A stretch of DNA of 10,492 nucleotides from Chloroflexota bacterium. Its GTDB lineage: Bacteria > Chloroflexota > Anaerolineae > Promineifilales > Promineifilaceae. The notes beneath the pieces were generated by a model. That model saw only the letters and a program-made list of their open reading frames with translations. It was not told the DNA's origin and ran no database searches. Location of the stretch: positions 1-10,492 of the forward strand of contig QQUD01000509.1 of assembly GCA_008501785.1 (NCBI GenBank), read 5' to 3'. The translations under genes and the position numbers were made by a program. Positions 1 to 10,492 of the stretch are shown piece by piece (within the stretch, counting starts at the first letter, position 1; the number at the start of each line of letters is the position of its first letter).

Positions 1-268
1 CTGACTGTGGCCCATTGTAAGCAGCACCTGTCACATATTCGATGCTGTTTGCCCCAGGCACCCCTGGAAACAGTGGTGGTATGGCAGGCCCTTCACTTGC
101 TTCCAAATTGAGCACTTTCGTGTAAAGCGTAGCAAAAATTTCTGCCGACGAGAGCGCTTGGCTCAAATAACAACCATTGCGTTCAATCGTCAAATCCAAG
201 ACACGACAGCGGATGCCCTGCGCCACACGCTTGGCTTGTAGCTGCCAATCAGTATCCTCGTTTATCAT
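1..268 (-). CDS. Transketolase, N-terminal (TPP-binding) part, truncated by window edge
   Basis: The first 89 codons of a minus-strand gene are visible, starting at the ATG at 268-266. An AAGGAG ribosome binding site (280-275) sits six bases upstream. The protein begins MINEDTDWQLQAKRVAQGIR and continues with RVLDLTIERNGCYLSQALSS and AEIFATLYTKVLNL. This matches the first helices of transketolase N-terminal domains, where the family usually has a SGHPGGSLSAAEIL-like segment; here the SGH is replaced by NGCYLSQ. A Pro-rich stretch (PPLFPGVPG) and VTGAAYNGPQS follow, a variant I associate with bacterial transketolase-like subfamilies. A transketolase would move two-carbon units from xylulose 5-phosphate, the expected product of the upstream catabolic genes. 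It is the last visible gene of the operon, 68 bases after the permease stop. Whether it is a full-length enzyme or a split N-terminal subunit cannot be seen. A different TPP enzyme of the same superfamily is the main alternative. Confidence 0.75.
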   Translation of the reverse strand, partial: MINEDTDWQLQAKRVAQGIRCRVLDLTIERNGCYLSQALSSAEIFATLYTKVLNLEASEGPAIPPLFPGVPGANSIEYVTGAAYNGPQS

Positions 269-336: not shown

Positions 337-1203
337 TTACTTAACCGCCCCCATCGTCATCCCTTCCACAAAGTAGCGGCGAATGCCATATGCCATAATG
401 AGCATCGGTATCATCACAATCAAACCAGCCGCCGACATTTGCTCCCAGGGAACATCCCGCTCACCAACCACATTGACCAGCCCGACAATCACGGTACGTG
501 TATCTTTTGTTGTTAAGAGAAATGCATAGAGGAATTCGTTCCAGGCCAGTAAAAACGAGAAAACGCCAGCAGTAATGATCCCCGGCAAGGCCAGTGGAAA
601 TGTCACATAGCGCAAAATACCCCATTCGGTGCATCCATCGACCATCGCGGCTTCTTCAATCTGGCTGGGCAACGTGTCAATAAAACCAAACAATAACCAC
701 ATTGCAAAAGGGATTGTGCGAGTGAGGTTTACAATCACTAGAGCAGTATAGGTGTCTAACAGTTGCAGCGTCCGAAATATGTTGAAATAAGGTAAAACCA
801 TGACAACGGGCGGGAAAAACTGTGTTGCTAACACGAGCACTAACAACAGGCGCTTAAACGGCAGCTTAAAACGAGACAATGCATAAGCGCCAGAAGTTGC
901 CAGAGGCAGCGTAATCACCACAACGGCAATACAAACAATCAAGCTGTTGATGATCAAGTTCTGAAAATCAAAAAGCTCAAATAAAATTTTGAAATTATCA
1001 AATGTTGGTTGAAATATGATCGTTGGTTTTGTCACATCTTTGGGTAGTTTAAATGCAGAGATAGATATCCAAAAGATGGGAAATGCAACAAATATAAAAA
1101 TGGCTAACAGCGAAAGAATATATCCGCCATTCCGATAAATGTCATTAAACGTAGCTTTATTTTTGGTCACTCTTTTTGTGGGCGTGCTTATTGCTGTTGT
1201 CAT
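337..1203 (-). CDS. Carbohydrate ABC transporter permease, MalG-type (CUT1)
   Basis: This is a 288-residue inner-membrane permease with about six hydrophobic segments. The first is near residues 28-50, after a Lys/Thr-rich cytoplasmic N-terminus. The ATPase-docking EAA loop is clear at about 183-207 (EEAAMVDGCTEWGILRYVTF followed by PLALPG). The end, RRYFVEGMTMGAVK, is the usual MalG-type C-terminus (FVEGLTAGAVKG-like). I chose the ATG at 1203, four bases after the preceding permease stop. The frame stays open upstream to a TTG at 1242, but that would add 13 residues and overlap the previous gene by 35 bases. Neither start has a strong ribosome binding site, so translational coupling is likely. 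With the other permease it forms the channel for the sugar delivered by the lipoprotein. No ATPase gene is present, so a shared MsmX/UgpC-like ATPase encoded elsewhere is expected. Confidence 0.93.
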   Translation of the reverse strand: MTTAISTPTKRVTKNKATFNDIYRNGGYILSLLAIFIFVAFPIFWISISAFKLPKDVTKPTIIFQPTFDNFKILFELFDFQNLIINSLIVCIAVVVITLPLATSGAYALSRFKLPFKRLLLVLVLATQFFPPVVMVLPYFNIFRTLQLLDTYTALVIVNLTRTIPFAMWLLFGFIDTLPSQIEEAAMVDGCTEWGILRYVTFPLALPGIITAGVFSFLLAWNEFLYAFLLTTKDTRTVIVGLVNVVGERDVPWEQMSAAGLIVMIPMLIMAYGIRRYFVEGMTMGAVK

Positions 1204-1207
1204 AAGA

Positions 1208-2080
1208 TTAATCGATGAGGATTCTTGAATAGAAATAGGCAAGAACCATCAAAATTATGGTTAAAATGATTGAAAGGGCAGAAGCATAGCCCATATCAAA
1301 AATTTGGAACCCTACTCGGAAAATGTAGTAATTTAAAATTTCAGTTGCGCGACCTGGCCCGCCTGCTGTCATGGTATGCACCACATCAAACACGCGAATG
1401 CTAAACAAGGTCACAAGCAAGACCATCACCAAAATCATGGGGCGTAACAAGGGAAATGTGATGCTCCAAAAGATTCGGACCGGTTTAGCGCCATCTACAC
1501 GGGCTGCCTCGAATATTTCGGGTGAAATATTGTTCAATGCGCCCAAAATCATCAGCCCACACAGCGGCCCCCACGACCAAAAAATTGGAACCGAAATCCA
1601 AAATAGCGCCGTACCAGGATTTGCCAACCACAACGTTTCTTGCACGGCTGGAATTGGAATGAGGAAGTCAATAATGGTGTCTAAAATGCCTTGCCCTTCA
1701 AGCAGCATGAAACGGAATGAATACCCTCTTAACACCAGGCTGATGGCAAAAGGAAAAATGAGCAATGATTTGATGATGCCGCTGGCCCAATTTGTCTTTT
1801 GTAAGACGATGGCACAAAAAAGACCAATGGCGACGGAGAAAAATACAGTGATGACAGTGTACCAAAAAGTGACGAGTACTGAATTCCAAAAGTCAACATC
1901 TTTAAATGCACGAATGTAGTTTTCGAGACCGATATAACCTAATGGTTCCTTTGACCGGGTAATCTGCCATTCTTGAAAACTTAAATTAATGACTGAAAAA
2001 ACAGGCAGAATTGTGGTGAGAATAATCGCAAAAAAACCCGGGAAAAGGAACAGGTATGCGGCCGAATTTGCACGCCTCAT
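1208..2080 (-). CDS. Carbohydrate ABC transporter permease, MalF-type (CUT1)
   Basis: This is a 290-residue integral membrane protein. It starts with a short basic N-terminus (MRRANSAAYLFLFPGFFAII), the usual beginning of MalF-type CUT1 permeases. About six hydrophobic segments follow. The EAA loop is at residues 191-210 (EAARVDGAKPVRIFWSITFP). The conserved TAGGPGRATEILNYYIF near 238-254 is typical of MalF/UgpA-type subunits. The ATG at 2080 is preceded by a near-perfect AAGGAGG, so the start is secure. The stop is four bases before the chosen start of the second permease. The gene follows the binding-protein gene after a 194-base gap holding two fold-back repeats, the usual place where expression of binding protein and membrane subunits is set apart. 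The imported substrate cannot be read from the sequence; the neighbours suggest a sugar acid or lactone. Confidence 0.93.
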   Translation of the reverse strand: MRRANSAAYLFLFPGFFAIILTTILPVFSVINLSFQEWQITRSKEPLGYIGLENYIRAFKDVDFWNSVLVTFWYTVITVFFSVAIGLFCAIVLQKTNWASGIIKSLLIFPFAISLVLRGYSFRFMLLEGQGILDTIIDFLIPIPAVQETLWLANPGTALFWISVPIFWSWGPLCGLMILGALNNISPEIFEAARVDGAKPVRIFWSITFPLLRPMILVMVLLVTLFSIRVFDVVHTMTAGGPGRATEILNYYIFRVGFQIFDMGYASALSIILTIILMVLAYFYSRILID

Positions 2081-2274: not shown

Positions 2275-3789
2275 CTAGTTGTCATACCGACCAGAGCGTT
2301 CCATGATCGCTTCTACATCAGCGGCTGCTTTGTTGAGAATGGCCGTAACATCACCGCCGGTAGCGATTTCAGTCATTGCCGCTTCAAGCACGACGCTCAC
2401 TTCGGGGAACTCGATGTAAACGAGTTCAGGAGTCGCACTTGAATAGGCGTCACCCATTGCTTGGCTAAATCCATTGTTTGCGTCTGGCCCATTGGCTTCT
2501 GCACTAAACAATGATGACAAACGATTGGCCACAACTGTATTGCGGGTTGGGTCATCTTTGGCCGTAATGACTTGTAAATCAAGGTCTGGATTTGTCATCC
2601 ATTTGATCCATTCAAGTGAGGCTTCTTTGTTGTTGGAGCTAGCAGAAATGCCCATTGGCCATGCCATGGAGATGGGGGAGCCACCTTTGCTTGGGCCTGG
2701 GATAGCGGATGTGAACCCAACATTTTCGCGCACAATGGCTTCCGACGTGTCTTCACGGGTAAAGATATTGTATGACCAGGACCATCCAATCGCCATTGCC
2801 GCTTCACCGGATGCAAATGAATTGCGCATATCGGCTTCGTTGTAGGTTGGCGCACCGGCAGGGGCATATTCTAAAAGCCCTTGATAAAATTCAGTTGCTT
2901 CAATACCGGCTGCATTGTTGAAGATTGGACGCCAATTATCATCAAACAGGTCCGTACCGTTTGTGCGTAAGAAATTTGTCCACACCATTAAGTTGATACC
3001 ACCACCTTGATTGGCCCAGTTCATGGTGATGCCATTTGTGCTATTGTCGGCTTCATTGATAATGCGTGCGGCATCTTCTAATTCAGCCCATGTGGTCGGC
3101 ACGTCTAACCCCAATTCTTCAAAAATGTCTTCACGATAGTACATCATCATGACGTGTGATCGAACGGGAATGCCGTATGTGACACCGTCGATTGTGGCAA
3201 TTTGACGGGATGAGTTTGGATAATCTAAGAGGTTGGTGTCGATTTGATCGCTGTATGTTTCGATGGGTTCGAGGAATTGAGCGAGTGATGGTCCCCAGGT
3301 TCCGAAGTAAATTGTTGTGTCCCAACTGCCAGGGTTGCCAACACTTTCGGTAACAATTTTTTCACGTAATCCACCCAGAGGATCGTTGGTGAATGTGACA
3401 TCGATGCCGGTGAGTTCTTTAAATTCGGCTGTGCTGTCTGCCCACGCTGCAAATTGGGCGGCGGCGGGACAGCAAATCAAGAATGTCAGTTCGGTGCCGT
3501 CATATGGCTTGCCGGGGAGCAATCCGTATGGCAGTTCTTCTTCCATGGCTGCTTCTACTTCGACAACGCGAGTCACTTCAACTTCAACCATTTCGCCTTC
3601 AACTTCTTCAATGACGGTTTCGACAACGGTTTCCACAACGGTCTCTGTGACAACCCGTGTCACTTCTACTTCTTGGACAATTGTTTCTGGTGTTCCCCCA
3701 CAGGCAACCACCACCAATGTGAGAAATAGTAAAGCGGTCAACAAAAATGGCAGATTGAAATTTTTTCTAAATAACCAATTCTTCTTCAT
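2275..3789 (-). CDS. Sugar ABC transporter substrate-binding lipoprotein (CUT1, SBP_bac_1-like)
   Basis: This 504-residue extracytoplasmic lipoprotein captures the sugar for the two permeases. A basic start (MKKNWLFRKN) and a hydrophobic core lead to the lipobox LVVVAC with the lipid-carrying Cys at residue 30. Residues about 36-86 are a low-complexity Val/Glu/Thr linker containing VEVTRVV twice (41-47 and 70-76), probably a tether lifting the binding domain off the membrane. The rest is a type I binding-protein fold. Recognisable parts are EFKELTGIDVTFTNDP, DGVTYGIPVRSHVMMMYYRE, FEELGLDVPTTWAELEDAAR and FASGEAAMAIGWSW. It is longer than many CUT1 binding proteins mainly because of the linker. 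The ATG at 3789 follows an AGGAG about nine bases upstream. It is 67 bases after the ulaE-like gene and followed by two hairpins. The ligand is unknown; the operon suggests a sugar acid or lactone. Confidence 0.93.
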   Translation of the reverse strand: MKKNWLFRKNFNLPFLLTALLFLTLVVVACGGTPETIVQEVEVTRVVTETVVETVVETVIEEVEGEMVEVEVTRVVEVEAAMEEELPYGLLPGKPYDGTELTFLICCPAAAQFAAWADSTAEFKELTGIDVTFTNDPLGGLREKIVTESVGNPGSWDTTIYFGTWGPSLAQFLEPIETYSDQIDTNLLDYPNSSRQIATIDGVTYGIPVRSHVMMMYYREDIFEELGLDVPTTWAELEDAARIINEADNSTNGITMNWANQGGGINLMVWTNFLRTNGTDLFDDNWRPIFNNAAGIEATEFYQGLLEYAPAGAPTYNEADMRNSFASGEAAMAIGWSWSYNIFTREDTSEAIVRENVGFTSAIPGPSKGGSPISMAWPMGISASSNNKEASLEWIKWMTNPDLDLQVITAKDDPTRNTVVANRLSSLFSAEANGPDANNGFSQAMGDAYSSATPELVYIEFPEVSVVLEAAMTEIATGGDVTAILNKAAADVEAIMERSGRYDN

Positions 3790-3856: not shown

Positions 3857-4729
3857 TCATGTCATGGGCATCCCTCCTTCCTCTTCCACGTTTATTAAAC
3901 TGCCAGCCTTCATTTTGTTTAGAATCCAATCTTTTGAGGTGGCAACGATTTGGATAGCATCAGGTGCGTTGTCATTCCACATCTCGAGTGTGAATGGGCC
4001 GCTGTAATTCATGTTTGCCAGTGTTTGAAATGCGTCTGCAAATGGGACGGTTCCGTTTCCGAATTGTACTCTGCGAAATGAACCGGGGGTGGTGTCTTTT
4101 AGATGGATGCCAATGATGTGATTTTTGCTAAGTTGGAGTTGTGTGCAAACGTCGAGATGGTTGGCTGAAAGGTTTCCGATATCAGGGTAAAGTTTCAGCC
4201 AGGGTGATTGGGCGGCTCGGATGAATTCCATTGCCGTGTCAAGTGAGAGGATGTCTTCTCCATCCATATTTTCCAGGCCAAGCATGACACCAGCTTGACT
4301 TGCCCAATACACGCCCTGCTGTAAGCCTTTACAAAAGCGTTCACGCGTTTGTGGATGATGTGGCTCATCAAAAACATAGTATCCGGCTAGTTGAATGACG
4401 CGAATGCCGATATCAACAGCGAAGTCGATGGCTTTTTTGAGGATGTTGCGGGCTTGACGCCGGATTGTGGGGGAAGCGCTGCCAAGTGGGTAGGTGCGAT
4501 GAGCGCTGAGGACGATGTTGTAGATGGGGATGCCAGTGTTGTTGATGGCTTTGCGCAGGCTGGCGCGTTGTGTTGGTGACCAATCTAGACGGCTTAATCT
4601 TTCGGGAGTAGCGTCGATGGCAATTTCCATGAAGTCGAAGTGGAGGGAAACGGCCGTTTCCAACCGCTCCTCCCAGCCCAACGCAGAAGAAAACGCTTTT
4701 TCGTAAATACCAATCTTTGGGACCGTCAT
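3857..4729 (-). CDS. ulaE: L-ribulose-5-phosphate (L-xylulose-5-phosphate) 3-epimerase, UlaE/SgbU-like
   Basis: This is a 290-residue cytoplasmic TIM-barrel (xylose isomerase-like) enzyme expected to convert L-xylulose 5-phosphate to L-ribulose 5-phosphate. It aligns from end to end with E. coli UlaE (284 residues) as I recall that sequence: GIYEKA near the start, RLSRLDWSPTQR at 44-55, LSAHRTYPLGS at 74-84, DIGIRVIQLAGY at 106-117 and KLYPDIGNLSA at 179-189. The four metal-binding residues of the family fall in place as E153, D183, H209 (HLKDT) and E249 (LEMW). Its ATG overlaps the stop of the upstream ulaD-like gene as ATGA (4729-4726), so the two are probably translationally coupled, as expected for consecutive pathway steps. 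The C-terminal tail is slightly long and ends EEEGGMPMT. The fold and family are firm. The exact substrate depends on what the altered UlaD homologue makes. Confidence 0.9.
   Translation of the reverse strand: MTVPKIGIYEKAFSSALGWEERLETAVSLHFDFMEIAIDATPERLSRLDWSPTQRASLRKAINNTGIPIYNIVLSAHRTYPLGSASPTIRRQARNILKKAIDFAVDIGIRVIQLAGYYVFDEPHHPQTRERFCKGLQQGVYWASQAGVMLGLENMDGEDILSLDTAMEFIRAAQSPWLKLYPDIGNLSANHLDVCTQLQLSKNHIIGIHLKDTTPGSFRRVQFGNGTVPFADAFQTLANMNYSGPFTLEMWNDNAPDAIQIVATSKDWILNKMKAGSLINVEEEGGMPMT
4646..4661. repeat. 16-bp palindrome centred on ACGGCCGT, inside ulaE
   Basis: GGAAACGGCCGTTTCC is a perfect 16-bp palindrome and the longest of six ACGGCCGT sites in the window. It encodes the E-T-A-V-S stretch near residue 25 of the epimerase. 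Confidence 0.7.
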
Positions 4730-5370
4730 GATCGTATCGCTTCGCTAAATTGGCGAGCTGCTGACAGTGGGTCAGGGGCATTGCGAATGGCGCGGCCAGC
4801 AATAATGACAAAAATGGGATGCTGCTTGAGTATGGCTATATCTTCTAATGTGATGCCTCCGGTTACGGTCACTTTGAAGCCCATGTCGGCTAACGTGTGA
4901 ATCGTGTCAAAATCTGATTGCTGCCACCTTTTGCTGACGCTGTTGGCTTCTTGGGAGTGGTGCAGCACAACTTGAGTAATGCCGAGTTCTCGCCATTGGC
5001 GAGCTTGTGCGAGTGTCCAGTTGTTGTTGAGTTCGATTTGGACGTCGCCGTTGTGGAGGTGGGATTGGTGAGTAACGGCCGTTATCGTCTCCAACGACGC
5101 ATCACTCACCACACTCACCCAATTCGCGCCCGCTTCAAAACAGAGTAGCGCAATCAGTCCCCCCGCCTTGATAATGCGTACATCAGCCAAAATGATGTGG
5201 TCTGGGTACAAAGTACGCATCATGCGTACTGCATTCATGCCTTCTGCCAGACACAACACAGTGCCAACCTCAATCACATCAATGTAAGGAAATGTTAATT
5301 GGGTGATATGGAGTGCAGATTGTAAATCTACATTATCCAATGCCAATTGCAGTTTAGGCAGATTTTCCAT
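4726..5370 (-). CDS. ulaD: 3-keto-L-gulonate-6-phosphate decarboxylase homologue (UlaD-like, OMPDC superfamily) with altered catalytic motif
   Basis: This 214-residue protein matches the length and layout of E. coli UlaD (216 residues), the Mg-dependent enzyme that decarboxylates 3-keto-L-gulonate 6-phosphate to L-xylulose 5-phosphate. Conserved parts are LQLALDN (7-13), IEVGT (33-37), FEAGANWVSVV (78-88), GDVQIEL (108-114), DMGFKVTVTGG (162-172) and IIAGRAIR (189-196). The positions matching UlaD E33, D62, E112, H136, T169 and R192 are kept as E34, D63, E113, H137, T170 and R193. However, the superfamily DxKxxD motif reads D63-V-R65-I-I-K68, so both the Lys and the second Asp are replaced. 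The position matching UlaD R139 is Gln140. The gene starts five bases after the lactonase-like stop, has only a weak ribosome binding site, and overlaps ulaE by four bases. Family assignment is firm. Activity as a true KGP decarboxylase is in doubt; a hexulose-phosphate-synthase-like or other reaction is possible. Confidence 0.85.
   Translation of the reverse strand: MENLPKLQLALDNVDLQSALHITQLTFPYIDVIEVGTVLCLAEGMNAVRMMRTLYPDHIILADVRIIKAGGLIALLCFEAGANWVSVVSDASLETITAVTHQSHLHNGDVQIELNNNWTLAQARQWRELGITQVVLHHSQEANSVSKRWQQSDFDTIHTLADMGFKVTVTGGITLEDIAILKQHPIFVIIAGRAIRNAPDPLSAARQFSEAIRS
5073..5084. repeat. 12-bp palindrome TAACGGCCGTTA inside ulaD
   Basis: This copy of the palindrome encodes I-T-A-V-T at residues 96-100 of the decarboxylase-like protein, in the same codon phase (ACG GCC GTT) as the other coding copies. 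Confidence 0.7.
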
Positions 5371-5375
5371 GTGGG

Positions 5376-6305
5376 TTACTTCACCATTGAATAAATTCTG
5401 GCCGGATTATTGAGCATAAAGTTGTCGAGTGTTTCTTCAGAAAAACCTTCCTCAATCAGGCGAGGTAAGAAGCGCTGCTTAATCCAGTTGAAGCCCGGTC
5501 CATATCCATAAACCTTATGGTGTGAACGTCGCCCCATATCATTTGACAGCATAATCTTTTTCTCAAACCCATCTGCCACAAGCTGCCGCAGCAAGTCAAC
5601 ACGCATACTGTCCGGATAATATTTTGCCTTTCCTGGCCCGTCGTAAATGATGTAAACACCCTTTTCCAGCATCTTGCGGTGATACCAGAGGTCAGGAAGG
5701 CGGTCTACATGGGCAATAATCATGCGCTCCATGTTAAAATTTTCGCTTTCAACAATCTCTGTTTGCTCAATGCCCATCGTGCCAGATGTGGTGTGCGTGT
5801 GCATACAAACGCCCGTTTCGGTGGCAGCACGGGCCGCTGCACGCAGCACCTTTTCTTCATTCGGCGTGATGTGCAAGTAAGCTGTGCCAGCTTTTACCCA
5901 GCCAGCCTTTACGTCAGTGCCATCCATGCCTATTGTAATTTCGTGAATCATGCGCTCGGCGATTTGGTCAATGGTTAAGTCGCTCACTTCTTCCGTCATT
6001 AAGCCATGTTCTTCACAAATATAGCCAGTGCAAGCGACGACATGCACGCCAGATTTTTGAGAAGCTTCGACCATACCTGGGGTGTTGCGCCCCCATGATT
6101 GTGGGGTGGTTTCGATAATGCAGCCACCATCAATGACTTTAAATTCTTGCAGCATTTGGATCGCTTTTTCAACGCTGTCTAGGTGATGACCTGCTTCAGC
6201 TTTGGATCCTTTTCCTTTGGGATTGGTCAAAATATGTTCGTGGGCCATGGTGAAGCCCAATTCAGACGCGTCAATATCTCCAAGGACAGTTCGTACTTTT
6301 GGCAT
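5376..6305 (-). CDS. Phosphotriesterase-family (COG1735) metal-dependent hydrolase, putative sugar-lactone(-phosphate) lactonase
   Basis: This 309-residue amidohydrolase-superfamily protein carries the binuclear metal centre of the phosphotriesterase (PTE) family. Numbered from the chosen start, it has the H-x-H pair H22 and H24 in MAHEHILTN, the bridging, probably carboxylated K138 in KAGWVKAGT, H171 in MHTHTTSGT, H199 in IIAHVDRLPD and D256 in MLSNDMGRRS. I chose the ATG at 6305 because AAGGA lies eight bases upstream; an in-frame ATG at 6311 would leave only two bases. PTE-family lactonases acting on phosphorylated five-carbon aldono-lactones are known from mycoplasmas. As the first gene of an ula-like operon it probably opens a lactone, replacing the metallo-beta-lactamase-type UlaG, which is absent here. 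The promoter about 80-100 bases upstream and a candidate operator should control it. Paraoxon-type activity is not implied; the precise substrate is unknown. Confidence 0.87.
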   Translation of the reverse strand: MPKVRTVLGDIDASELGFTMAHEHILTNPKGKGSKAEAGHHLDSVEKAIQMLQEFKVIDGGCIIETTPQSWGRNTPGMVEASQKSGVHVVACTGYICEEHGLMTEEVSDLTIDQIAERMIHEITIGMDGTDVKAGWVKAGTAYLHITPNEEKVLRAAARAATETGVCMHTHTTSGTMGIEQTEIVESENFNMERMIIAHVDRLPDLWYHRKMLEKGVYIIYDGPGKAKYYPDSMRVDLLRQLVADGFEKKIMLSNDMGRRSHHKVYGYGPGFNWIKQRFLPRLIEEGFSEETLDNFMLNNPARIYSMVK

Positions 6306-6340
6306 TTCCATCTTCCTTATTCGTTATTGATGAGAACGGG

Positions 6341-6544: not shown

Positions 6545-7504
6545 ATGGGGCAAATTATGCGACCAAAAATGTCTAGGCTCATCAGAGCGGCAGAACTTTA
6601 TTATGAAAGAAATTTAAGTCAGCGCGAGATCGCCAATATTTTAGGCACATCGCGGTCTAAGGTATCTCGATTGCTGGCCGAAGCACGAGAAGTCGGAATT
6701 GTTGAAATTACGATTAATCGGCCCATTGAAAAAATGCCAGAGCTTTCAGAAGAAATACGAAAAGCATTCAATTTGAGGGATGTGGTTGTGGTTGCCGCAG
6801 GTGAAACGTATTTAGACTCGTTGCGCAATGTTGCAAAGGCCGCTTCAGAACTATTGTTGAGCATTATTGAGCGGGACATCACCATTGGTATTACGTTTGG
6901 ACAGACACTTTACCATACTGTACAGGCGTTAGATGAGACGCCTGTTGAAGGGGTGGAGATTGTGCAGATGGTGGGGGCTTTGGGTGAAGGTGATTCACAG
7001 ATTGACGGGCCGGAAATTGCGCTACGCATGGCGGAACGGCTGCATGGCACTTACCGATATGTGCATGCGCCAGCAGTTGTCGAAAGTCAAGAAATACGCG
7101 ATGTATTGATGCAGCTCCCACAAATTCAGGAGACGATGAATCGGGCAGCTAATGCTGATATTATGATTCAGGGAATTGGTTCACTTGCCGAGGAAATGTC
7201 TAGCCTTGAAAGAGCCGGTTACATCTCATCAGAAGAGAGATTGATGTATCAGGAGCAAGGAGCTGTTGGTCACTTGGTTGCGAAATTAATTGATGGACAA
7301 GGCAACGAAATCAGTTCTTTTAATAATCGGGTGGTAGCTATGCCATTTGAATACATGCGTATAGCAAAATGGTCGATTGGCGTCAGTGCTTCACCTTTGA
7401 AAGCTTCTGCTGTGTTGGCTGCTATTCGCGGCAGTTATTTCAATACGTTAGTCATTGACGATAAGTCTGCGCATGAGGTTTTGCACTTAATCGATTCAGA
7501 ATAG
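6545..7504 (+). CDS. SorC/DeoR-type sugar-binding transcriptional regulator
   Basis: This is a 319-residue DNA-binding regulator, the usual length of the SorC family. An N-terminal helix-turn-helix spans about residues 12-50 (AAELYYERNLSQREIANILG then TSRSKVSRLLAEAREVGIV). The rest, about 60-317, is the phosphosugar-isomerase-like effector domain, with GITFGQTL at 115-122 in the position of the family GISWGRTL motif, followed by VQMVGALGEG and DIMIQGIGSL. The effector is probably a phosphorylated sugar made by the divergent operon. The ATG at 6545 has no clear ribosome binding site. The in-frame ATG at 6557 follows GGGG by six bases and is a reasonable alternative that leaves the HTH intact. 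It is transcribed away from the sugar operon across a 233-base region rich in inverted repeats, the classic layout for a local regulator. Whether it represses or activates cannot be decided from the sequence. Confidence 0.9.
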   Translation: MGQIMRPKMSRLIRAAELYYERNLSQREIANILGTSRSKVSRLLAEAREVGIVEITINRPIEKMPELSEEIRKAFNLRDVVVVAAGETYLDSLRNVAKAASELLLSIIERDITIGITFGQTLYHTVQALDETPVEGVEIVQMVGALGEGDSQIDGPEIALRMAERLHGTYRYVHAPAVVESQEIRDVLMQLPQIQETMNRAANADIMIQGIGSLAEEMSSLERAGYISSEERLMYQEQGAVGHLVAKLIDGQGNEISSFNNRVVAMPFEYMRIAKWSIGVSASPLKASAVLAAIRGSYFNTLVIDDKSAHEVLHLIDSE

Positions 7505-7658: not shown

Positions 7659-7744
7659 CGTTTTTTGTCGCATCTAAATGTTAAAATAAATTTATACTTA
7701 TTGATTATGAAGTCCCTATTTGCTTTTAACAAAGTTGGATGAGT

Positions 7745-10492
7745 ATGACAAAAAATATTGAGTTAAATCCCACACGACTAAACAGGAATAATGGAGATGT
7801 TGAACAGTTTGATGAAGATGAAACGGCCGTTATCAACAACCTCCTCACCAATAGTCAAAACAAATACCAAGGTTTGTTTGAAGCTACTCCAGTTTCTCTC
7901 TGGGAAGAAGATTTCTCTGAAGTTAAAAAGGTTATCGAACAGTTGAGAGAGGATGGAGTCACCGATTTTCTATCCTATTTTAGTGCCCATCCAGAAATTG
8001 TTAGCCACTGCATTAGCCTCGTTCGTGTCATTGATGTTAATCAGGCTACTTTGAAAATGTACAATGCCAAAAGCAAGCAAGAGTTGCTAGATAATCTCGA
8101 TAAGATTTTTGGCACGGAAGCCTTTGAAATTTTTAAACAAGAGCTAATTGTAATTAGTCAAGGCGGTACTGTATTTGAGAGTGAAGGGGTAAACTACACC
8201 CTTGATGGAGATGCAAAAGATGTTGCTATTCGTTGGTCAGTTTCTCCTGGATACGAAAAGTCACTTTCTCAAATAATTGTGTCTAGTATTGACATAACTG
8301 AAGCAAAACGAGCCTCAAAGCAGCTAAAATTACAAGCAGCTGCTTTGGAATCAGCAGCCAATGCAATTGTGATTTCTGATGATAAAGGCGATATTTTGTG
8401 GGTGAATCCAGCTTTTACTAAGCTAACGGGTTATTCTTACAATGAAGTATTGGGGAGAAACTCACGTATCTTAAAATCTGGAAATAATAATGAAAAAATT
8501 TACCAGGATTTATGGTCAACAATTAGAGCTGGAAATGTTTGGCATGGAGAAGAGCTGATTAATTGCCGCAAAGATGGCACTTTATACCATGAACAGATGA
8601 CAATTGCGCCGGTGGAGGATGAAAACGGCAAAATTTCAAGATTTGTAGCCATTAAAGAAAACATTACAGAACGCAAGCAGTTAGAAATGAAGCTGCGACG
8701 GCAATTAAAAGAAGAAGAAGTTCTTCGTCAAATTGTTTCACTTACCACCTCAAAAAACGAGTTTTCAGAGATTGTAGCAACCATCTGCGAAACATTGACC
8801 CATTTTTTTAATATGCCTATTTGTGCTTTTGCATTGCTTAATGAAGAAAGTATGTATATGGACGTGATTGCTGATTATGTTAACTCAACAGCCGTTGATT
8901 CTGAGCATAATCTAATTTCAATTTTGAATGTTGCGCCAAAAGATTTTTTAATGGCTCAAAAGACAGCATTAATCATTACAGATGTAAACAATGCAGACAT
9001 TTTGGAACCTGTACAAGATATTCTTCAAGAATCTGACAATGCATCAGCCTTTTTGATTCCAGTTGATATTGATGAGCAAATTAAAGGCGTTTTTGAATTT
9101 GCCACTCAAAATTCTCAAGAATTTACGCAAGCTGATATTTCATTTGTCGAACAAATTGCGACCCAAATTAGTCAAGCATTTCAGCGTATTCGGGCTGAGG
9201 AAGAATTAGAAACACAACGAGATTTTGCTCGTCAGATTATGAACAATATGGGGCAGGGTCTCGTTGTCGCTAATACGAACTGGTTTATTGAATATAGCAA
9301 TCCAACTTTTGCCAGAATGCTTGGTTATCACCCTGAAGAGCTTGTTGGAAAATCAGTACTTGATTTAGTTTTTAGGTTGAACAAGAAAAAGGTTGATAAA
9401 GTTTATCGGCGTTGGTTGGATGGTGATGTACAAAAGATTGAATTACCGTTAGTGCATGTGAACGGTTCAACGCTTTATGTTTTGATGACGGCCGTTCCCC
9501 GTTATGTTGATGGAGAAATTAGTGGCGCCATTGCTGTTATTGCAGACTTGACTGAGCGTAAGCAGATGGAAACGCGGCTACGGCGCAATTTACAAGAAGA
9601 AGAGTTGTTGCGGCGTGTGGCCTCATTGACAACCTCCAAAAATGATTTTATGGATACCCTGACAAGTGCTTGTGTTGAATTATCCCAGTTTTTTCAAGTG
9701 CCAAAAGGTGCATTTGCTTTAATAAACGAAGAGCGAACGCATGCAGAAGTGATTGCTGAATATTGCGAACCAGGTCAACGGAGTTCTTTAGGTCATCCCA
9801 TTCCGCTTGCCAATAATGCATCAATGGAATTTCTATTAAACGAAAAGAAGGCATTGGCAATCACAGATGCCCAACACGATCCTCTCATGGCTCCAGTTCA
9901 TGCGATGATGGCAGAGTTTGGGATTGCTTCAATATTGCTCATCCCTATTTTGATTGATGATAAGGTTGTGGGTACGATGGGGTTTGATTCACTAGAAATG
10001 AGAGAATTTAGTGATGAAGATATTGCGCTTAGTCAAAGAGTCGCCAATCAACTCGGGTTGGTATTAGAGCGGCAACAAGCAGAAACTGCATTGCAAAGAG
10101 AGCGAGATTTCGCACACCAGATTATGGGAAATATGGGGCAAGGCTTGCTGGTGTTGACTAAAGACCAAAAGATTCGATACTGTAATCCCGCATTTGGAAA
10201 TATTCTTGGATATAACAATGATGAATTGATTGATAAATCAATGGTGTCGTTGTTAAGTAATGCAGATATTTATGAATCTATTCAACCGGCCTCTAAAGAC
10301 TTGCAAGCTAATAAATTGGTGCGAGAGTTGGCGCTGAGGCATATAACTGGTAAGGATGTACATGTCTTGTTAACGGCCGTTCCCCGCCAAAACAACATCA
10401 ACGAAGGGGGCGCTATTGTTGTTGTCACCGATTTGTCCAAACAAAAAAAGATAGAGCAAGCTCTTTCAGATGCCCGTGACCAGGCGATTGAA
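7745..10492 (+). CDS. Multi-PAS/GAF signalling protein, probably a sensor kinase; 3' end outside window
   Basis: An uninterrupted frame of 916 codons runs from the ATG at 7745 to the window end. The domains, in order, are: PAS-like (about 40-188; ATPVSLWEEDF, LVRVIDVNQATLKMYNA, ending SSIDITEAKR); PAS (about 197-312; AIVISDDKGDILWVNPAFTK, ending ENITERKQ); GAF (about 318-486); PAS (492-607; NPTFARMLGYHPEELVGKS, ending TERKQ); GAF (613-781); PAS (787-902); and the start of a helical stretch, KIEQALSDARDQAIE. Such a helix commonly leads into a histidine kinase dimerisation domain, but GGDEF or another output cannot be excluded. No membrane segment or signal peptide is seen, so the sensor is probably cytoplasmic, reading small ligands, redox state or light; no cofactor-binding residue can be named. 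A weak GGATGAG precedes the ATG. It lies downstream of the regulator with its own leader, and a link to the sugar operon is not shown. Confidence 0.88.
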   Translation, partial: MTKNIELNPTRLNRNNGDVEQFDEDETAVINNLLTNSQNKYQGLFEATPVSLWEEDFSEVKKVIEQLREDGVTDFLSYFSAHPEIVSHCISLVRVIDVNQATLKMYNAKSKQELLDNLDKIFGTEAFEIFKQELIVISQGGTVFESEGVNYTLDGDAKDVAIRWSVSPGYEKSLSQIIVSSIDITEAKRASKQLKLQAAALESAANAIVISDDKGDILWVNPAFTKLTGYSYNEVLGRNSRILKSGNNNEKIYQDLWSTIRAGNVWHGEELINCRKDGTLYHEQMTIAPVEDENGKISRFVAIKENITERKQLEMKLRRQLKEEEVLRQIVSLTTSKNEFSEIVATICETLTHFFNMPICAFALLNEESMYMDVIADYVNSTAVDSEHNLISILNVAPKDFLMAQKTALIITDVNNADILEPVQDILQESDNASAFLIPVDIDEQIKGVFEFATQNSQEFTQADISFVEQIATQISQAFQRIRAEEELETQRDFARQIMNNMGQGLVVANTNWFIEYSNPTFARMLGYHPEELVGKSVLDLVFRLNKKKVDKVYRRWLDGDVQKIELPLVHVNGSTLYVLMTAVPRYVDGEISGAIAVIADLTERKQMETRLRRNLQEEELLRRVASLTTSKNDFMDTLTSACVELSQFFQVPKGAFALINEERTHAEVIAEYCEPGQRSSLGHPIPLANNASMEFLLNEKKALAITDAQHDPLMAPVHAMMAEFGIASILLIPILIDDKVVGTMGFDSLEMREFSDEDIALSQRVANQLGLVLERQQAETALQRERDFAHQIMGNMGQGLLVLTKDQKIRYCNPAFGNILGYNNDELIDKSMVSLLSNADIYESIQPASKDLQANKLVRELALRHITGKDVHVLLTAVPRQNNINEGGAIVVVTDLSKQKKIEQALSDARDQAIE
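7822..7831. repeat. Palindrome AACGGCCGTT near the sensor N-terminus
   Basis: It encodes T-A-V at residues 27-29, in the poorly conserved segment before the first PAS domain, where sequence constraint should be low. Confidence 0.65.
8687..9571 (+). repeat. GAF-PAS module, copy 1 (295 codons)
   Basis: Residues 315-609 begin with MKLRRQLKEEEVLRQIVSLT and end at the next TERKQMET-like linker. Matching landmarks are LRRQLKEEE, SLTTSKNEF, RDFARQIMNNMGQGLVV and LMTAVPR. All lie exactly 885 bases before their counterparts in copy 2, without any net insertion or deletion. Confidence 0.85.
9488..9495. repeat. ACGGCCGT palindrome in GAF-PAS copy 1
   Basis: It encodes the T-A-V of LMTAVPR (residues 582-584). 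It lies exactly 885 bases before the copy at 10373, so these two are related by the module duplication and are not independent. Confidence 0.65.
9572..10456 (+). repeat. GAF-PAS module, copy 2 (295 codons)
   Basis: Residues 610-904 repeat copy 1: LRRNLQEEE, SLTTSKNDF, RDFAHQIMGNMGQGLLV and LLTAVPR. Nucleotide identity is patchy, with long matches around the NMGQG codons, so the duplication is not recent although the spacing is perfectly kept. Confidence 0.85.
10372..10381. repeat. Palindrome AACGGCCGTT in GAF-PAS copy 2
   Basis: It encodes the T-A-V of LLTAVPR (residues 877-879). It is a better palindrome than its partner in copy 1, where the flanking A is G. Confidence 0.65.

Follow-up and report, generated by a model that had tools for sequence, protein, structure and literature searches.

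Joint exchange of several charged active-site residues in the branch of an UlaD-like protein from a Chloroflexota locus

The locus and its UlaD-like gene

The window (the whole stretch of DNA analysed, 10,492 nt of a Chloroflexota contig) carries on its minus strand a row of genes for, in the order of transcription, a phosphotriesterase-family (PTE) protein, an UlaD-like protein, an UlaE-like protein, a solute-binding protein, two permeases and the start of a transketolase-like protein. A regulator gene is divergent from this row.

6545..7504, plus strand: SorC/DeoR-type regulator, divergent (Pfam Sugar-bind)
5376..6311, minus strand: PTE-family lactonase-like protein (Pfam PTE), directly upstream of the UlaD-like gene
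4726..5370, minus strand: UlaD/KGPDC-like protein of the DxRxx[KR] branch, 214 aa, open reading frame
5167..5184, minus strand: D63-V-R65-I-I-K68, aligned to UlaD D62-K64-D67
5101..5103, minus strand: D90
4948..4953, minus strand: Q140-E141, aligned to UlaD R139-D140
3857..4729, minus strand: UlaE-type pentulose-5-phosphate 3-epimerase (NF009688, TIGR00542), its gene sharing 4 bases with the end of the UlaD-like one
2275..3789, minus strand: ABC sugar-type solute-binding protein (Pfam SBP_bac_1)
1208..2080, minus strand: ABC permease (Pfam BPD_transp_1)
337..1242, minus strand: ABC permease (Pfam BPD_transp_1)
2..268, minus strand: first part of a protein resembling the N-terminal half of a transketolase, running off the window edge; over 81 aa it is 65% identical to the product of 6998-7924 in L016, a gammaproteobacterial locus treated below

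The 89-aa piece at 2..268 has no Pfam match. Past the divergent regulator, a gene for a multi-PAS/GAF protein (7739-10492, plus strand, 918 aa in view) runs off the right end of the window.

The first-pass annotation had described the UlaD-like protein as an UlaD homologue with a kept scaffold in which D63-V-R65-I-I-K68 stands in place of DxKxxD and Gln140 at the position of UlaD R139, and these points are borne out. The protein passes the gathering score of Pfam PF00215 (99.6 bits, cut-off 27), and phmmer aligns its residues 3-212 with E. coli UlaD (PDB 1kv8; E = 2.4e-64). In this alignment R65, K68 and Q140 fall opposite UlaD K64, D67 and R139, while E34, E113, H137, T170 and R193 are kept. 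The minus-strand codons are GAT for D63 (5182-5184), CGC for R65 (5176-5178) and AAG for K68 (5167-5169); that of E141 is at 4948-4950. An AlphaFold2 model calculated from 17 aligned sequences has a mean pLDDT of 90.7, with values below 50 in the loop 141-145, and its best Foldseek matches in the PDB are UlaD entries (TM 0.92, about 50% identity), as expected of a protein with the UlaD scaffold. There are no branch members among the close PDB sequence matches of the window protein.

Family models and residue signatures place the protein near KGPDC (UlaD, SgbH; E. coli 1kv8, S. mutans 3exr), with which it shares about 50% identity over 210 residues. The KGPDC residue signature in Table 1 of PMC5980557 is D11, E33, D62, K64, D67, E112, H136, R139, T169 and R192. 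Seven of these ten are kept in the window protein, as D12, E34, D63, E113, H137, T170 and R193, and K64, D67 and R139 are replaced; in UlaD numbering the differences are K64 to R, D67 to K, R139 to Q, D140 to E and C89 to D. The NCBIfam model of the KGPDC subfamily, NF009832, is narrowly missed (242.1 bits, cut-off 250); it is passed by 4 of 16 scanned branch proteins as against 12 of 12 scanned DxRxxE proteins. The UlaD equivalog model NF009831 is missed as well (211.3 bits, cut-off 294), and none of the 28 proteins scanned (window protein, branch, DxRxxE) reaches its cut-off. The DxKxxD test of the OMP-decarboxylase/HUMPS suprafamily is failed both by the window protein and by the 149 DxRxxE homologues listed. 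Since several charged active-site residues are exchanged together in the branch, the automatic label of the protein is uncertain.

Two other members of the suprafamily offer a comparison. HPS (3ajx) resembles the window protein in fold (TM about 0.85) and also lacks Arg at the 139 position, but according to PMC5980557 it retains DxKxxD, and its residues at UlaD positions 112, 169 and 192 are Asp, Ala and Gly, where the window protein, which is without DxKxxD, has Glu, Thr and Arg. HPS identity is ruled out by this residue signature (the window protein has R65, K68, E113, T170 and R193) and by the cut-off of TIGR03128 (141.1 bits, cut-off 200). OMP decarboxylase shares the fold and the origin of the DxKxxD motif; it differs in that the window protein is without the Lys and the second Asp of the motif, at about 20% identity.

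Co-changing positions 68, 90, 140 and 141

Three protein searches with branch queries, from which the best 120 of 443, of 692 and of 888 matches were taken, gave 224 distinct homologues. As these are the top ranks for branch queries, the proportions of motif classes among them (149 DxRxxE, 52 DxRxxR, 21 DxRxxK and 2 DxKxxD) are uninformative on natural abundance. The count of homologues, which the first-pass annotation had proposed, thus gives K/R68 in 73 of the 224 listed. That annotation had taken DxKxxD for the defining motif, which proves not to be universal nearby. K64 to R is common to all 149 listed DxRxxE homologues and is therefore no peculiarity of the window protein but ordinary when taken alone. 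Sequencing error or a lone mutation is ruled out, the same kind of change being present in 73 of the 224.

What had been described as a charge swap at two residues extends instead to four positions that change together. Among the matches listed, all 73 K/R68 proteins have Glu141, all have an acid at position 90 (Glu in 62, Asp in 11), and none has Arg140, the residue there being Ser in 26, Ala in 24, Val in 12, His in 4, Gln and Asn in 2 each, and Asp, Pro and Thr in 1 each. The DxRxxE proteins listed have R140 and D141 in 149 of 149 cases, with residue 90 Gly in 147, Pro in 1 and Ala in 1; the two DxKxxD proteins have R140, D141 and Cys90. Residue 90 is accordingly an acid in 0 of the 151 listed homologues outside the branch (Gly, Ala, Pro or Cys throughout), residue 141 is Asp in all of them, and there is no exception to the association of 68, 90, 140 and 141 among the 224. 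The distinctive change is this relocation of charge over four positions, and not K64 to R. R68 is paired with E90 in 52 of 52 listed proteins, and K68 with Asp in 11 and with Glu in 10; because of shared descent, we do not take these pairings as evidence of contact.

The other active-site residues, said earlier to be intact, are so in the window protein but not throughout the branch. D12, E34, D63 and R193 are invariant in the 73 listed members and E113 and H137 are kept in 72, with Asp at 113 in one and Arg at 137 in one; T170 is replaced by Ala in 16, which speaks against one uniform enzyme throughout the branch.

Among 80 genome loci compared, the DxRxx[KR] type occurs in two, with Val140 in both. 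Five of the 80 are HPS-like DxKxxD loci with a residue other than Arg at 140, so a missing Arg140 does not by itself set the branch apart. A group of Anaerolineae loci (L115-L123; about 37-41% identity) has DxKxxD with Trp at the R139 position (HRGWD/HREWD), a non-standard UlaD signature; a SorC-type regulator match is found in L115, L116 and L121.

Trees were built with columns 65, 68, 90, 140 and 141 removed. The branch falls on one side both in a tree of 29 branch proteins and 54 others (99/93) and in a tree of 73 branch rows and 31 others (97/91). In the first tree the DxRxxE proteins and the branch jointly form one side (100/96), so that most simply the change from Lys to Arg came first and the four-position change arose later, once. 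The DxRxxE type itself needs two changes in the first tree and lies on one side in the second (96/98). Convergent acquisition of K/R68 in unrelated lineages is unneeded, as the tree gives one change. The co-change may thus go back to one ancient event. Having arisen a single time on the tree, it speaks strongly for a linked state but not for repeated coevolution.

Named branch members come from Chloroflexota/Anaerolineae MAGs, a Deinococcota MAG (P0128), a Rhodospirillales MAG (P0179) and gammaproteobacterial Spongiibacteraceae and Porticoccaceae MAGs (loci L016 and L036); those nearest to the window are Chloroflexota. In 1,989 genome look-ups, which covered several groups and included some genomes repeatedly, there were no branch loci beyond the L016 and L036 genomes, the motif-checked matches being of other motif types. 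A scan of viral contigs gave no relative, and plasmid searches gave no match of at least 60% identity. No publication on a DxRxxK or DxRxxE KGPDC was found by titles and abstract openings, in a coverage outside which most subscription journals lie.

The view that the frame is open and the gene not decayed is upheld by the 214-aa reading frame, by the 73-member branch and by selection between two of its members. The UlaD-like proteins of L016 and L036 are 71% identical, with a dN/dS of 0.11 (NG86) or 0.22 (YN00), values that are rough because dS, at 1.0-1.7, is near or at saturation. In both genomes with context (G004 and G005) the gene is single-copy, with one match each. Gene decay is ruled out by the open frame, the purifying selection in the L016 and L036 relatives and the conserved operon, which suggests that the UlaD-like protein is functional.

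Neighbourhood of the branch and of related loci

A divergent SorC gene and the order PTE, UlaD-like, UlaE-like are found in all three branch loci with visible context, namely the window, L016 and L036, which come from unlike phyla (Chloroflexota as against two gammaproteobacterial MAGs). The divergent regulator of the window is 49-50% identical to those of the other two. Between the window and L016/L036 the PTE proteins are 60-62% identical and the UlaD-like proteins less so (44-47%).

The UlaE-like neighbour passes TIGR00542 (302.8 bits, cut-off 272.15) and NF009688 (333.3 bits, cut-off 317). The PTE neighbour passes Pfam PTE (206.3 bits, cut-off 22.4) and fails NF045706, the NCBIfam model of phospho-furanose lactonase (170.7 bits, cut-off 630). 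H24, H26, K140, H173, H201 and D258, which we take to be the PTE metal-ligand pattern, are invariant in 22 aligned PTEs. In a tree of these proteins the PTEs of the window, L016 and L036 form a branch of their own (100/100, stem 1.13), apart from 19 PTEs of other ula-type loci.

Unlike a standard ula locus, the window has neither UlaG nor a PTS in view and has a PTE-family lactonase instead. UlaG was not found in the three branch loci with context, and a search of the L016 and L036 genomes with an UlaG model was negative in both and positive in the E. coli control. No kinase or dehydrogenase is seen in the part of the gene row inside the window. L016 also has a split transketolase, a PfkB-type kinase, a CobW-type GTPase, TctC and TctA (by Pfam, a tripartite tricarboxylate transporter), a short-chain dehydrogenase and a ribulose-phosphate 4-epimerase-like protein (251.9 bits, NF005123 cut-off 251). 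The kinase, CobW, TctC, TctA and dehydrogenase, whose equivalog scores are lower or unchecked, have counterparts in L036 at 72-85%. The CobW-type GTPase gene lies inside both gammaproteobacterial operons (L016 12473-13483; L036 4311-5396) and possibly serves metal supply for the PTE-type lactonase.

For a comparison of motif classes, the 80 loci, which are of unequal length, were searched by tblastn (E <= 1e-8); the letter after the stroke is residue 140.

DxKxxD/R (n=51): UlaG 31, PTE 15, neither 5, PfkB 0
DxRxxE/R (n=21): UlaG 14, PTE 3, neither 4 (contig loci of 6-12.5 kb), PfkB 21
DxRxxR/V (n=2): UlaG 0, PTE 2, PfkB 2
Remaining 6 loci (5 HPS-like, 1 cut off): without UlaG, without PTE

For two of the UlaG matches the curated model gave confirmation, with 618 and 652 bits (cut-off 306). 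UlaG and PTE matches occur together in none of the 80 loci, as a replacement of UlaG by PTE would predict; most simply, PTE proteins have repeatedly taken the place of UlaG. A PTE gene in the apparent place of UlaG, beside a standard or DxRxxE UlaD gene, is seen in 18 of 72 loci (among them L041, L055, L057, L005 and the Mycoplasma-type L052-L074). We therefore reject the PTE neighbour as a sign of a new substrate, since PTE matches also lie beside standard UlaD genes and weaken any case built on it.

The nearest larger group, the DxRxxE homologues annotated as 3-dehydro-L-gulonate-6-phosphate decarboxylase, has Arg65 in common with the window protein and comes from Chloroflexota, Acidobacteriota, Spirochaetota, Deinococcota and Actinomycetota. 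Their loci resemble those of the branch in matches to a SorC regulator, UlaE and a PfkB-type kinase, and in 16 of 21 to ABC permeases; they differ in UlaG (14 of 21 loci) and the proteins in Glu68, Arg140, Asp141 and no acid at 90 (149 of 149 listed). Because UlaG is found in 14 of the 21 loci, the DxRxxE proteins look like ascorbate enzymes, and with 149 such homologues listed, the UlaD reaction probably tolerates Arg in place of the UlaD Lys. In L001-L004, L007, L011, L013-L015, L017, L022, L047, L056 and L059, DxRxxE genes lie beside UlaG, UlaE, a PfkB-type kinase and, mostly, ABC permeases, with no PTS among the genes examined; such a locus seems to encode a route for L-ascorbate that does without a PTS and has a kinase of its own.

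Reaction, substrate and wiring of the active site

The first-pass annotation had suggested a changed reaction or a new substrate for the window protein, either of which is possible, although the findings do not demand a new reaction. We consider it probable that within the OMP-decarboxylase suprafamily it stands on the KGPDC (UlaD) side, as a functional but divergent protein, a 3-keto-hexonate 6-phosphate decarboxylase with a rewired active site. In the pathway that we infer, the PTE-family lactonase encoded next door would supply the acid substrate, the UlaD-like protein would remove CO2 from a 3-keto-hexonate 6-phosphate and so form a pentulose 5-phosphate, probably L-xylulose 5-phosphate, and through the UlaE-type 3-epimerase this product would enter the pentose phosphate pathway. 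In the ula route of E. coli, as described in PMC3219644, UlaD, UlaE and UlaF work in sequence. By analogy, the cut-offs passed by the UlaE-like 3-epimerase and the 4-epimerase-like gene of L016 make pentulose 5-phosphate the likely product. By our own reasoning, the 3-keto acids of L-gulonate, L-galactonate and L-idonate would all give the same product, as the configuration at C2 and C3 is lost on the route, so that a new substrate would be possible without any change downstream.

UlaD active-site positions in Table 1 of PMC5980557 include D62, K64, D67, C88, E112, H136, R139, T169 and R192, and position 90 of the window protein, equivalent to UlaD 89, adjoins the listed C88. In the branch the acid at UlaD 67 has given way to a positively charged K/R68, the Arg of UlaD 139 is gone, the Asp next to it has become Glu141, and a new acid has appeared at 90. 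The second Asp of DxKxxD in OMPDC, written D96', comes from the partner subunit and is networked with the Lys (PMC12874384). By analogy, K/R68 may reach the active site of the neighbouring subunit and take over the positive charge of R139, with D/E90 and the longer E141 as the acidic partners formerly given by D67 and D140. Against this explanation count the absence of R140, which is part of the KGPDC signature in PMC5980557, and the Ala at T170 in 16 of the 73 listed branch members, which is the HPS residue in the same table.

A further reading, which we put forward tentatively, takes the branch for a separate family whose substrate would be one that UlaD does not use, in a hitherto undescribed pathway for a lactone or sugar acid made up of PTE lactonase, decarboxylase, 3-epimerase and split transketolase; the active-site cation would have moved from the R139 loop to K/R68 of the partner subunit, with two new acids balancing it. 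The separate branch formed by the PTEs of these operons counts for this reading, and the repeated replacement of UlaG by PTE proteins counts against it.

Within the probable reading of a 3-keto-hexonate 6-phosphate decarboxylase, and as a sub-case of it, the enzyme could be the same as UlaD in other wiring: a 3-keto-L-gulonate 6-phosphate decarboxylase of a PTE-dependent ascorbate-type or L-gulono/L-galactono-lactone-type pathway, altered by compensating drift. The UlaE-like gene is conserved, and the PTE neighbour alone does not mean another substrate, given that PTE replaces UlaG in 15 of 51 DxKxxD/R and 3 of 21 DxRxxE loci. By stereochemistry, in our own reasoning, 3-keto-L-gulonate equals 3-keto-L-galactonate, so several lactones would lead to UlaD's own substrate. 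Nevertheless the lactonase of these operons branches apart from other ula-linked PTEs, and four positions at or beside published active-site columns have co-changed, with E141 and D/E90 then held in 73 of 73 listed members, so we regard this narrower version as somewhat unlikely.

An altered reaction, in which the metal-bound enediolate would not simply take up a proton but would enter an aldol-type or other step, as in HPS, or the protein would be a sugar-acid phosphate epimerase or isomerase, would fit the Ala170 and the single Asp113 of listed branch members. E112D/R139V/T169A mutants of UlaD reportedly have raised HPS activity. Such mutants have been made and solved (PDB titles), the title of ref. 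37 in PMC5980557 agrees with the raised activity, and the HPS signature in Table 1 of that paper is also without R139 and has Ala at T169. Yet R193 in 73 and E113 in 72 of the 73 listed members are kept, unlike in HPS (Gly, Asp), HPS keeps DxKxxD (PMC5980557), and the annotated genes of L016 include no phosphohexuloisomerase-like neighbour; we consider such a reaction improbable. That the protein is a catalytically weakened or moonlighting homologue with a structural or regulatory role, as replacement of textbook catalytic residues might suggest, is most improbable in view of its single copy in G004 and G005, its operon place between two enzyme genes, the purifying selection and the D12, E34, D63 and R193 invariant in the 73 listed.

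The OMP-decarboxylase suprafamily is a standard case of one barrel giving several reactions, and PMC12874384, writing on OMPDC, takes DxKxxD for its fixed core. In the branch, a natural example, two of the motif's three residues have other side chains, one of them charge-reversed, with matching changes at three more positions, and this makes it testable which active-site charges an enzyme needs and which it can place elsewhere. For database entries such as P0004, P0005, P0010 and P0011, the NCBI name 3-dehydro-L-gulonate-6-phosphate decarboxylase rests on similarity over a changed active site.
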